NCBI GenBank assembly: GCA_018381595.1
Contig: JAGZRP010000020.1
Span: 1-9,776, forward strand
Source of the DNA: Bacillota bacterium
Lineage (GTDB): Bacteria; Bacillota_I; Bacilli_A; RF39; UBA660
Direction: 5' to 3'
Length of the DNA stretch: 9,776 bases
In this document: positions 4,591 through 9,776 of the stretch, piece after piece
Layout: each line of letters begins with the position of its first letter
Position numbering within the stretch: the first letter of the stretch is position 1
Program-made: the position numbers and the translations under genes
The notes under the pieces: generated by a model
Database searches by the model: none
Told to the model about the DNA's origin: nothing
The model's input: the letters and a program-made list of their open reading frames with translations, nothing else

Positions 4591-4634
4591 GACAATTTTT
4601 TATAAGAAATAGCTGTTTCAAAATTTGATTCATT

Positions 4635-4655
4635 TGACACTAGAAAAGTGTCAAT
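4635..4655. promoter_or_regulatory. Perfect inverted repeat, candidate operator
   Basis: TTGACAC and GTGTCAA form a perfect 7-bp inverted repeat around a 7-base spacer (total 21 bp, typical for a dimeric repressor). With one bulged T the arms extend by TCA/TGA. There is no T-run after it, so it is not a terminator. It covers the -35 region of the promoter just downstream, a classic position for repression. The binding protein is unknown. Confidence 0.55.
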
Positions 4656-4670
4656 GAATTTGGTATACTT
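4642..4670 (+). promoter_or_regulatory. Extended -10 promoter for the leader ORF / pilin unit
   Basis: TGGTATACT (4662-4670) is an extended -10 element (TGn plus TATACT, 5 of 6 consensus). Seventeen bases upstream is a weak -35, TAGAAA (4642-4647), which lies inside the inverted repeat. Transcription would start near 4677, just before an RBS at 4689. The ltaS gene has a very similar TGTTATACT element. Confidence 0.6.
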
Positions 4671-4701
4671 GTGGTAGATAAAAAAACTAGGAGTGTTGCA
4701 T

Positions 4702-4884
4702 ATGAATGTTAGCTTAACGTTACCATGGGGGGGGGGGTATTTATATAATACTACCAAAACAAAATTAGAAAAATTAGATAAAAAAAATAGACATATAAGT
4801 TGTTTTCATGGTGGAAACAACTTTTTTGCTGTGTGCAAATTATCTCGTTTTTTGGCATACTTTCACAACAAAAATCCTATATAA
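4702..4884 (+). CDS. 60-codon leader ORF containing an 11-G tract
   Basis: I do not recognise this product. ATG 4702 has a good RBS (AGGAG at 4689-4693, eight bases upstream) and lies about 25 bases behind a promoter. The peptide starts MNVSLTLPWGGGYLY. It is rich in Lys, Asn and Phe later on and has no membrane helix or known motif. Codons 9-12 (TGG GGG GGG GGG) are the G tract at 4727-4737. Only with 11 Gs (or 11 plus or minus 3) does the frame stay open to TAA 4882-4884, passing through the terminator at 4797-4827. One G more stops at 4746-4748 (15 residues) and one fewer at 4766-4768 (21 residues). I infer a regulatory leader peptide rather than a functional protein. It may also be a chance ORF over a small RNA. 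The alternative GTG/TTG/ATG starts upstream of 4702 fit the RBS less well. Confidence 0.45.
   Translation: MNVSLTLPWGGGYLYNTTKTKLEKLDKKNRHISCFHGGNNFFAVCKLSRFLAYFHNKNPI
4727..4737 (+). repeat. Homopolymer of 11 Gs, candidate phase-variation tract
   Basis: Eleven consecutive Gs in a strongly AT-rich setting, inside the start of a ribosome-bound leader ORF. Tracts of this length slip during replication and are the classic basis of ON/OFF phase variation in surface genes. An assembly or sequencing artefact (poly-G from two-colour chemistry) is possible, but the tract sits in otherwise sensible sequence between promoter and terminator. Confidence 0.8.
4797..4827 (+). terminator. Rho-independent terminator inside the leader ORF
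   Basis: The arms AAGTTGTTTTCA and TGGAAACAACTT pair along 12 positions (one G-U) around a TGG loop and are followed by a T-run to 4827. This is a strong intrinsic terminator about 120 bases downstream of the predicted transcription start and about 105 bases before the first pilin gene. It would end a transcript of about 150 bases unless ribosomes translating the leader ORF cover it. Confidence 0.8.
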
Positions 4885-4899
4885 ATAAAGGAAAATATG

Positions 4900-4908
4900 T
4901 GATAAAAT
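4900..4908 (+). promoter_or_regulatory. Weak candidate promoter directly before the first pilin gene
   Basis: TGATAAAAT fits an extended -10 (TGn plus TAAAAT, 5 of 6), but there is no acceptable -35 seventeen bases upstream (TATAAA). If it works, the pilin operon would have its own promoter independent of the upstream leader. I regard it as weak. Confidence 0.25.
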
Positions 4909-4933: not shown

Positions 4934-6061
4934 ATGAAAAAGAAACAAGGATTTACATTAATTGAATTATTAGCTGTGATTGTGATACTTGCAGTGATTG
5001 CCTTAATCGCAACGCCATTAATCATGGGCACCATTACGAAAGCGAAAATCAATAGCTTCAAAGATAGTATGTATGGAGTTCTCAAAAGTGCAGAACAATA
5101 TGTAGGAGAAAAGTTATTAGAAAGTGAAAATAGTTATCCTGGAGAGTTCATTAATTTAACAAATCAAGATAAATTAAATTATAAAGGAAGTAAAATAAAT
5201 GGGGAAGTGATGATTACAAAAGACGGATCTGTGAATATCAAAGCAGTTTATGGAGATAGTTGTTATTACAAAAATGAATCAGATAAAGAGATATTAAGTT
5301 TCAAAGGGAATTGTGATAAGCTTTATACTTATAACGGGGTTTATGGAATTCCAACAGACGCAAATGAATTTGAAACAGAAGTATTGGATAATGGTAAAAT
5401 ATCAATTAAAAAATATAAGGGACCAACTAATACCATTGTGAATATTCCAGAAACAATTAATGGAAAATTAGTTGTGAAAATAGATAGTTATGCTTTTAGG
5501 TGGATGAAACTTACAAAAGTTCGAATTCCAAACAGTGTGGAACGCATGGAATGGGGAAGTTTTATGGGAAATAATTTAAATGAAATTATTTTTCCGAAAA
5601 ATGAATATACCTATTCAGGTGCTAATTTTATTTCGAATAATATGCCAGAAGAAAAAGCTTGGATTTATCACAGAACTGTTGATGGTCTTGAAGATAGGAA
5701 AGTGTTAAATAGTTATGCAGGGGCTGACAAAAAGGTAAATGTTCCTTCACTGATAGAAGTATTGTTAAGTTGGTCTCTTACAAATCGAGAAGAAGTAATA
5801 TTGAATGAAGGATTAAAAATTATGCATGATTTTTCTTTGTCAGAGCACCAATTTACAGAAATCAGGATTCCTTCTACAGTGACGAATATTGGAACAGATG
5901 TGTTACGATTAAGCCCGACAAATGATCATTTCCAAAAAATTATCAATAAAACGGGAAGAGCTTTTGACTGGGGACTTATCACAGGAACGACATCCACAGG
6001 TGCATTTGTAACAGGAGTTGTACATCATCCTAATGGAGATATTCAGGTAGTAAGTGAGTAA
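4934..6061 (+). CDS. Prepilin-like surface protein with BspA-type leucine-rich repeats
   Basis: A 375-residue secreted or membrane-displayed protein. The N-terminus is a class III (type IV pilin/pseudopilin) signal: a short basic leader, GFTLIE at 6-11 with cleavage expected after G6 and E11 as the conserved Glu+5, then a hydrophobic helix to about residue 33. After the pilin stalk (to about 60) comes a small domain with two Cys (SCYY and GNCDK) that could form a pilin-type disulfide. From about 150 on come LRR_5/BspA-like units: IPETING with SYAF, RIPNSVERMEWGSF with LNEIIFP, and a later RIPSTVTNIG. LRR_5 domains in this setting usually bind host or partner-cell molecules; the ligand here is unknown. 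The gene is followed after 35 bases by a paralogue with no terminator between. No pilus assembly ATPase or prepilin peptidase gene lies in the window. Confidence 0.85.
   Translation: MKKKQGFTLIELLAVIVILAVIALIATPLIMGTITKAKINSFKDSMYGVLKSAEQYVGEKLLESENSYPGEFINLTNQDKLNYKGSKINGEVMITKDGSVNIKAVYGDSCYYKNESDKEILSFKGNCDKLYTYNGVYGIPTDANEFETEVLDNGKISIKKYKGPTNTIVNIPETINGKLVVKIDSYAFRWMKLTKVRIPNSVERMEWGSFMGNNLNEIIFPKNEYTYSGANFISNNMPEEKAWIYHRTVDGLEDRKVLNSYAGADKKVNVPSLIEVLLSWSLTNREEVILNEGLKIMHDFSLSEHQFTEIRIPSTVTNIGTDVLRLSPTNDHFQKIINKTGRAFDWGLITGTTSTGAFVTGVVHHPNGDIQVVSE
4976..5022 (+). repeat. 47-bp perfect direct repeat, copy 1 (pilin signal helix)
   Basis: These 47 bases are identical to 6139-6185 and code for the hydrophobic helix of the pilin signal. 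The similarity continues on both sides, from the RBS to about codon 58. Identity down to synonymous positions suggests recent duplication or gene conversion of the head. Confidence 0.9.
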
Positions 6062-6096: not shown

Positions 6097-6363
6097 ATGA
6101 AAAAAGAAAAAGGATTTACATTAATTGAATTACTTGCAGTGATTGTGATACTTGCAGTGATTGCCTTAATCGCAACGCCATTAATTATGGGAACAATTAC
6201 GAAAGCCAAGAAAAATGCATTTAAAGATACTGCATTTGGTATTTTAAAAGCAGCTGAAAATTATGTTGCAGAAAAAATGTTGGAGGAGGATGTCTATTCT
6301 GGAGAAGAAATTATTTTACCGGATTCTAGACGATTGAAGTATAAAGGGGGAGACTTAAAATAA
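6097..6363 (+). CDS. Prepilin-type head, truncated by TAA (88 residues)
   Basis: This is the part of the second pilin gene that would be translated as the DNA stands. It has a good RBS (AGAGAGGT, 6080-6087). Its signal is identical to that of the upstream paralogue over 33 residues from the Gly of GFTLIE, and the stalk is then similar (KNAFKDTAFGILKAAENYVAEKMLE against KINSFKDSMYGVLKSAEQYVGEKLLE, each shown here for comparison). It ends at TAA 6361-6363 in the middle of a conserved stretch (YKGGDLK), where the paralogue continues. The 88-residue product would be a stalk with almost no globular head. It is either a broken remnant or, less likely, a minimal pilin. Confidence 0.6.
   Translation: MKKEKGFTLIELLAVIVILAVIALIATPLIMGTITKAKKNAFKDTAFGILKAAENYVAEKMLEEDVYSGEEIILPDSRRLKYKGGDLK
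6139..6185 (+). repeat. 47-bp perfect direct repeat, copy 2 (pilin signal helix)
   Basis: Identical to 4976-5022, 1163 bases apart in the same orientation. Recombination between the copies would delete one C-terminal domain and fuse the remaining one to the same head. Confidence 0.9.
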
Positions 6364-7261
6364 GGAATTGTTCAAATTAATAGTCAAGGTGAAATTGCAA
6401 TTTATAATGATAGTTGGTGTGTAAAAAAAGATTCTTTTGAAAAAGATTTCCAAGTTGAGCCTTATCAAAAACATAAGTGTTATGCTAGTGTTTCTACAAA
6501 GGAAGCAAGTAAGCAAATTGCTAGTAAGAATATTGAAAATAATACGGATGGTTTGTTCACAGATGATTATGGGAATATTAGATATCGTGGTGGTAACAAT
6601 GAAGTAAAAAATTATGTATCGTTTAATAATCAATCATGGTGAATTATTGGAATTTTTCAAGGAAAAATCAAATTAATTAAAAATGATACATTTCTATCAG
6701 TATGGAACGAAAATAAAAATAATGATTGGAGAGATTCAACTCTAAAAAAATATTTAAATACTAATTTTTATCAATCTTTCCAGGAATCTGCGAAAAGTAT
6801 GGTTGCACGTTATCCTTATTATTTAGGAGGTTCTTCATTCGTTCCTTCTACTAAGGAAAACGCATATTCTGTAGAACGTGGAACAGAAATATTTCAATGT
6901 TCTTCAGGTTCAACATGCCCTAGAGCGTATGAAACAAAAGAATATATAGGAATTCCATATATAAGTGATTATGGATATGCAGCAAGAGAAAATTGTGAGG
7001 TTAGTACATTATGGCAATATGGAGATAATGAAAACTGTAGTCGTGATGGGAATTGGTTATTATTATCTGATGCGCTTTGCTTTATTACTCCCAGATCAGA
7101 TTTAGCTTCTAGTGTATTTCATATTTATACAAATGGATATATAGGAAGAGATTTATCAACAAAGGCACAATGCCGTGTTGCACCAGTTTTATATTTAGAG
7201 GAACAAGTAAGAATAGTAAGTGGGGATGGAACGATTCAGAACCCTTATATTTTTGAAAAAT

Positions 7262-7288
7262 AAAGCAGGTTTTTTTCCTGCTTTTCTT
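7262..7288 (+). terminator. Rho-independent terminator after the pilin pair
   Basis: The stem AAAGCAGG/CCTGCTTT (7262-7269 with 7277-7284) has a loop of seven Ts and is followed by TTCTTG. The left arm overlaps the stop codon of the second pilin gene. It ends the pilin unit before the ltaS promoter. Confidence 0.8.
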
Positions 7289-9443: not shown

Positions 9444-9776
9444 ATGACACGTACTAAAAAAAGAAAATTAAAAAAGAAACGTTTATTCATTGCACTTGCG
9501 GTTGTACTTGTAATTTTACTAGTTACTGGATTTGGAATATATCAAGTATTCTTTAAAAATGATAAAGAAAAGCAAGTAGTAAAAGTTGCAGACAAAATTA
9601 CAGATGGATATGGTTATACCATTACAGATAGCGCAACGAAGTATTCAAAAGATTTATTTCAAAAATTAAAAACAGAACTTGCATAAGCAACTCCAAATGA
9701 AAAAAAAAATGCAGAACTAGAGAGTCAATTATTCTTAAGTGAATTCTTTACTTTAAGTAATAAGATAAACCGTAAT
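9444..9776 (+). pseudogene. Membrane-anchored protein of unknown function, interrupted by TAA (3' partial)
   Basis: The product starts with a strongly basic segment (MTRTKKRKLKKKR). One hydrophobic helix follows at about 14-34 and then an extracytoplasmic part beginning FFKNDKEKQVVKVADKITDGYGY, all typical of a small single-pass anchored protein. The frame stops at TAA 9684-9686 after 80 residues. It then stays open in the same frame to the window end for 30 codons of ordinary coding character (TPNEKKNAELESQLFLSEF and onward), which look like the continuation of the same helical domain. I recall similar proteins next to LTA synthase in uncultured Bacilli with a longer ectodomain, but cannot name a function. 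The neighbourhood suggests a role in the cell envelope. The TAA could come from CAA, AAA or GAA by one change. The gene is cut by the window edge. Confidence 0.6.

Follow-up and report, generated by a model that had tools for sequence, protein, structure and literature searches.

Layout of the locus and its poly-G leader

The window, that is, the whole stretch of 9776 bases analysed here, carries an rlmN-like gene, a PP2C phosphatase, a PASTA kinase and an RsgA-like GTPase (names that we presume from the sequence), followed by rpe (ribulose-phosphate epimerase), a short leader, two pilin-like genes and a sulfatase/LTA-synthase-like gene. The features relevant to this work are the following.

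4634..4654, no strand: inverted repeat TTGACACT-N5-AGTGTCAA, 8-bp perfect, overlapping the -35 region
4661..4669, + strand: extended -10 TGGTATACT, predicted leader promoter, 7/8 consensus positions, 32 nt before the leader ATG
4689..4693, + strand: ribosome-binding site AGGAG of the leader ORF, by direct reading, 8 nt before the ATG
4702..4884, + strand: leader ORF of 60 aa with 11 Gs, ATG at 4702 and stop TAA at 4882-4884, spanning the terminator
4727..4737, + strand: 11-G tract, predicted slippage site, with homologous tracts of 3-11 G in relatives
4746..4748, + strand: TAA ending the leader at 12 Gs (phase 1), by frame computation
4766..4768, + strand: TAG ending the leader at 10 Gs (phase 2), by frame computation
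4797..4827, + strand: predicted intrinsic terminator, 12-bp stem at 4797-4823 and T run to 4827
4900..4908, + strand: -10-like TGATAAAAT, possible internal promoter, 7/8 positions, 25 nt before the pilin ATG, counting against a switch
4934..6061, + strand: pilin-like gene 1, N_methyl prepilin motif and BspA-type LRR_5 (Pfam), predicted switch target
6097..7263, + strand: pilin-like gene 2, N_methyl, DUF6273 in its last part, in-frame TAA at 6361-6363 and TGA at 6640-6642

The domains of the second pilin-like gene were obtained by searching its broken pieces separately, and its frame is open around the two in-frame stops. Another gene, at 9444, is ended early by an in-frame TAA (9684-9686), after which the frame is open to the end of the window.

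The leader ORF, the 11-G tract, the hairpin, the end of the ORF at 4884 and the pilin gene at 4934 had all been described in a first-pass annotation of this DNA, and they were confirmed to the base. Downstream of the tract, the first stops of the three phases are at +144, +8 and +28 nt. With 11 Gs the frame runs through the hairpin, and the ends that had been given for 12 and 10 Gs (4748 and 4768) are indeed the stops at +8 and +28 nt. The promoter that had been claimed held up in part, since the extended -10 is good but a clear -35 is absent. An extended -10 matching 7 or 8 of 8 positions was present upstream of the leader in 23 of the 24 copies tested, at a distance of 19-40 nt from the scored leader start; this score was also reached by 0-25% of shuffles of those 23 stretches (13% for the window). 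The inverted repeat at the leader promoter is a possible operator, and it was absent from all 361 loci fetched.

In 200 shuffles of the window, a run of eight Gs had a mean of 0.01 matches and a maximum of 2, as compared with the 4 overlapping matches observed, all from one tract. The opening of a single phase is not rare in itself: 22% of dinucleotide shuffles of the 59-nt spacer of the window gave the same pattern. A protein search with the window leader returned its own copy only and Pfam gave no match; the leader of another copy, L294, had no match in the protein search. Close leader peptides were thus not found in the protein set searched. An Rfam search of the window returned three matches up to an E-value of 5, all far under their cut-offs, and thus no convincing family; the match nearest to the leader, and the sole one near it, was mir-2733 at 4599-4682 (26.8 bits, cut-off 72.9).

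Related leaders and their genomic positions

A protein search of genome contigs with rpe returned 50 distant loci, the best at 46% identity (L001, recorded as an uncultured Tenericutes bacterium). The family of this record (386 genomes) was used as the set for genome searches. Searching these genomes with the sulfatase protein identified G255, G153, G387 and G329 at 85-89% identity, which belong to the same genus as G006. The sulfatase gene follows rpe directly in G153 and G387, other DNA without a leader follows rpe in G329, and the contig of G006 breaks off 28 nt past rpe. G255 has a homologous leader behind rpe and, next to it, a different surface gene, whose link to the sulfatase gene runs via a second contig with an overlapping end. 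Therefore, the module sits in the same position in G255, with other cargo. The terminator core AAGTTGTTTTC...RAACAACTTTTT is similar in this syntenic leader (L078 from 2473, also L233) and in other copies; the G255 leader reads through the terminator and stops just after it. Since its tract is only GGG, it could hardly switch.

A second poly-G leader was first found in L069 (genome G097). The pattern GTTAGC-N{4,25}-GGGTATTT matched in 28 of 372 family genomes, with multiple copies in G097 (15), G255 (8) and G329 (5), and single copies with a G tract in G208, G170 and G153 (tract interrupted in G153). The other 22 genomes had one match each, with no G run longer than four except in G032 (six Gs, in-gene), and we took these matches as chance because the reversed control scatters over even more genomes. 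The pattern GGGGGGGGTATTT was matched 119 times, over 29 of the 386 family genomes, versus 4 times for the reversed control, and it was found in 5/78 and 7/79 genomes of two overlapping samples of relatives (control: 0). G097 alone has 16 poly-G leaders, and in same-family genomes the leaders precede pilin-like or other surface genes. The pattern T-G7-TAT matched in none of eight genomes and was a poor choice, as it demands exactly seven Gs. In viral_contigs, a loose pattern matched at least 120 stretches, where the sole G8 run among the matches listed (L094) is no leader, and two stricter patterns gave no matches.

Poly-G tracts of other designs were also read. G173 has 41 GGGGGGGGTATTT matches, nine of which were fetched (L329-L337). 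All nine have, behind a short start (for example MNHNVNR), a tract of 9 Gs, a length that leaves the frame of this start closed at +5; another phase is open for 1500-1632 nt in six of them (a surface-type protein) and gives a short ORF to the next gene start in three. The G8 tracts of G036 (L262, L267, L270, L273 and L275) lie between CGAAC...GTTC, which we take to be a LexA-box-like motif (imperfect in some), and TATAAT, and they possibly represent promoter-spacing phase variation. In G265 (L338-L344), G9 tracts lie just upstream of a TTGACA...TATAAT-like promoter in all seven copies read. A different design is also present in G152 (L345-L349), where 8-11 Gs lead straight into a hairpin that resembles a terminator (for example GGGGTATTTATACCCC) and is followed by a T run.

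Reading frames, tract lengths and alternative readings

We scored 48 distinct tracts, which were sorted into types by reading; L249 (G032) had been dropped earlier as a chance match in a gene. Twenty-seven of them combine a terminator-like hairpin with three phases that can be read. Left out of this set were eight tracts cut by a contig end (L242, L246, L252, L253, L255, L259, L283 and L286), two without a terminator between leader and gene (L241 and L297) and 11 of in-gene or promoter type (L247, L261, L262, L263, L266, L267, L269, L270, L272, L273 and L275).

In all 27 copies, exactly one tract phase takes the leader to or through the hairpin. This open phase ends 1 nt short of the hairpin in the G097 copies and 2 nt short of it in L237; in all others, its stop is inside or past the hairpin. 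For the two closed phases, the distances from tract to stop are 4 and 8-17 nt in 26 of the 27 copies, and 8 and 28 nt in the window. In L264 (G006) and L298 (G255) the open phase corresponds to n = 0 mod 3 and not to 2 mod 3, and still one phase crosses the hairpin; in L243, a 1-nt shift is present and the frame stays open. Shuffles of single spacers reproduced the one-phase-open pattern in 22-45% of cases. Therefore, one copy proves little, and it is the recurrence over diverged classes that carries weight, copies within a class not being independent. In a neutral simulation of seven related spacers, all seven were open with P of about 0.05. We conclude that the poly-G leader with its hairpin is a real, repeated element.

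A later survey covered 46 further regions, 32 of which were scored and 14 read by eye (L307, L326, L338-L344 and L351-L355). Among the 32, L317, L360 and L361 were taken as attenuator-type, and the other hairpins are in-gene, save for the ambiguous L350 (G152), whose longest phase stops 11 nt before the predicted hairpin. An alignment of relatives had been proposed as a check of the switch, and a leader closed whatever its tract length had been named as evidence against it. The logic of long frame and hairpin was kept in the 27 copies and in L317 (G353), which fits the one-phase-open rule, but not in both copies from G107: L360 is borderline, and L361 falls short of the hairpin in every phase. 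None of the 27 copies is closed in this way.

Single-base codon differences in the leader frame were 161 nonsynonymous to 25 synonymous, with 119/72 and 165/43 in the other two frames. By these codon counts there was no positive coding signal and no codon-level conservation of the leader peptide, which fits a leader whose translation, and not its sequence, matters. We also considered that the 3' Gs of the tract serve mainly as a hairpin arm, as GGGTAT...ATACCC was seen by eye in several copies, and this idea fits the G152 tracts abutting GGGGTATTTATACCCC. It fails for the one-phase-open pattern, because a change in tract length leaves the 3' Gs unaltered.

As assembled, eight of the 27 copies are ON (the window, L233, L235, L236, L238, L240, L244 and L264) and 19 are OFF; L233 and L240, with runs of only 3 and 4 Gs, would be locked ON. 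The G097 leaders have 9 Gs in 14 of 16 copies and 8 in the remaining two; the sequence can be read as far as the hairpin in 10 of these 16. Between G006 and G255, near-identical leaders (67 nt shared) differ in having 9 versus 10 Gs. Two overlapping contigs of G034 differ in tract length: C4 has 9 Gs and ends 8 nt past them, and C7 has 10 Gs preceded by 117 nt from its start. Upstream of the tract, the contigs are identical at 117/117 positions, and the tract is of the in-gene type. This looks like one locus with two alleles, the other explanations being a duplicated locus or a homopolymer sequencing error. Across relatives, the tracts range from 3 to 11 Gs, and so do not have the fixed length that the first-pass annotation had named as speaking against slippage.

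These data suggest that the window element is probably a phase-variable transcription attenuator, in which slippage would switch the frame and translation-coupled antitermination would gate the pilin-like genes. Slipped-strand mispairing at replication would add or remove Gs, tract length would set the leader frame, and one frame in three crosses the predicted terminator. At a length of 11 Gs, and likewise of 8 or 14, ribosomes would trail RNA polymerase over 4797-4827 and block the hairpin, turning pilin transcription ON. With 10 or 12 Gs, they would stop about 30-50 nt upstream, allowing the hairpin to form and leaving transcription OFF. This chain from length through frame to readthrough had been put forward beforehand; it remains the best reading, strengthened by the 27 copies and L317, and is inferred from sequence.

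The main open doubt is an internal promoter in the window. If a promoter between the terminator and 4934 mainly drove the pilin genes, the poly-G leader would have little or no effect. A transcription start between 4830 and 4933, which had been named as contrary evidence, could arise from the TGATAAAAT site, and a 7/8 -10-like site between hairpin and gene is also present in L233, L239, L240 and L244. We nevertheless regard such a promoter as an unlikely main driver: 16% of shuffles reach the score of the window site, no -35 was seen, and the other 19 of the 24 copies tested have no 7/8 site between hairpin and gene. Since no -10-like site of at least 7/8 lies between hairpin and gene in the compact copies L235, L236, L248, L264 and L298 or in the G097 copies tested, the leader promoter is the only obvious one in compact copies.

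A further point against an attenuator is that similar tracts lie inside genes or promoters in other genomes. Phase variation could also act by translational coupling to the downstream gene, with a minor part for the hairpin, as the TGA of the open frame overlaps the ATG of the downstream gene in L235, L264, L295 and L298, the leaders of L241 and L297 stand just before the gene without a terminator, and the tract is in frame with the gene itself in G034, G206 and G184. This route is improbable for the element as a whole, as 49 nt separate the leader stop from the pilin ATG in the window, and the G097 leaders stop just before the hairpin, about 70-90 nt from the gene. The leader might even be a non-functional relic of a prepilin gene start next to a chance terminator; it resembles poly-G prepilin leader peptides and the second pilin gene of the window is broken, but the one-phase-open pattern is kept in 27/27 copies over several diverged classes, including those with a changed phase, and makes a relic very improbable. 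The run of GGG codons ahead of a terminator also recalls an ordinary amino-acid attenuator that senses glycine supply, with slippage being incidental. We give this the slightest of chances, as the targets look surface-type or pilin-like and not like glycine genes, and lengths that close the leader before the hairpin are common (the 19 OFF copies).

Predicted target genes and comparison with known switches

The genes behind the attenuator-type leaders of G097 are pilin-like, with N_methyl in both of the two tested and a KGFTLIELLAVIVIL start in all nine copies with a readable gene start. The targets read in G255, G329 and G153 are proteins of about 490 or 330 aa that lack a Pfam match and have a hydrophobic stretch at the N-terminus; in this set, the leader of L241, which has no terminator, precedes the gene of a C39-peptidase protein. 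On contig C39 of G255 (L238 2527-2651 and 2852-2976), the 125-nt end of the gene behind the leader is repeated 325 nt downstream. The two repeats have 18 differences, and all 18 are at adenines of the downstream (template) copy. Beyond them lies an RVT_1 match; since it has two in-frame stops, this copy of the enzyme may be decayed. The arrangement is the variable/template layout of a putative diversity-generating retroelement, whose variable gene is the one behind the predicted poly-G attenuator.

Tracts of this kind are part of the prepilin leader peptide proper in G034 and G206 (MVANSNFGGGYLKNTNKKGFTLIELL; MRNRFANSKNGGGYLNNPQGFTLIELL), and the first 14 bases of a G097 leader in L265 are common to the G034 prepilin start. 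From these comparisons of short stretches, the attenuator leader likely derives from a poly-G prepilin start.

On balance, we favor a multi-locus slippage-attenuator regulon in this family of uncultured, Bacilli-like bacteria, in which prepilin-derived poly-G modules would each gate a paralogous pilin or surface gene and at least one target would also be diversified by a retroelement. Because relatives put the same module on many paralogous surface genes, each cell would express a random subset of them. Such a regulon would thus produce random subsets of the surface repertoire, with two layers of random variation at one locus at least. For existing metagenomes, it predicts mixed tract lengths per leader and ON alleles given by length modulo 3.

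Poly-G phase-variable genes are known from Neisseria and Campylobacter, where poly-G slippage switches surface genes, as proposed here. The Clostridioides difficile genes cwpV and flgB switch by DNA inversion and not by tract length. They share with the switch proposed here a phase-variable surface expression in a low-GC Gram-positive bacterium (PMC2784873 and PMC5386303). In the Neisseria/Campylobacter systems, the switched gene itself carries the tract, in its coding frame or its promoter (as abstracts state for PorA, HmbR and HpuAB), whereas here it lies in a separate leader before a terminator. As in trp-type attenuators, which are also discussed in PMC3894217, leader translation would decide terminator formation; unlike in these, the deciding factor would be the position of a stop codon set by the tract, and no amino-acid sensing is evident.

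The closest known systems are pil1 and pil3 of Streptococcus gallolyticus, and the claim of the first-pass annotation that no such switch had been described was wrong. As reported by Danne et al. 2014 (PMC3894217), out-of-frame changes in GCAGA number move the leader stop from before the terminator to close to, inside or past it, and this shift raises pilus transcription in a translation-dependent manner; a Pil3 phase-variation event in the same species is reported in PMC8545106. Among the matches listed, judged by titles and the beginnings of abstracts and with most subscription papers outside, no slippage-in-leader-peptide attenuation besides the S. gallolyticus pili was found. Since Danne et al. 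2014 (PMC3894217) showed the same logic, the mechanism proposed here is of a known kind.

As in pil1/pil3 (PMC3894217), the elements have a repeat in a leader ORF with start and ribosome-binding site, a predicted intrinsic terminator before the pilus or other surface genes, and a frame that sets the stop relative to the hairpin. Repeat number places this stop before, or in or after, the hairpin in the window and 26 further copies, and fails to do so in one of the two G107 copies. The pil1/pil3 repeat is the pentanucleotide GCAGA, with 22 and 13 units at two loci of strain UCN34 that encode sortase pili (PMC3894217), whereas here a mononucleotide G tract precedes type IV pilin-like and other surface proteins, at 16 leaders in G097. 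As the repeat is poly-G and not GCAGA, we describe the element as one that would work like pil1 and do not file it as a pil1 homologue. New here are the mononucleotide tract, the many loci per genome, the likely kinship with prepilin leaders, and the case of a predicted target that a putative retroelement would diversify as well. A second, seemingly unrelated case would show that this logic evolved more than once and was scaled to a whole surface repertoire.
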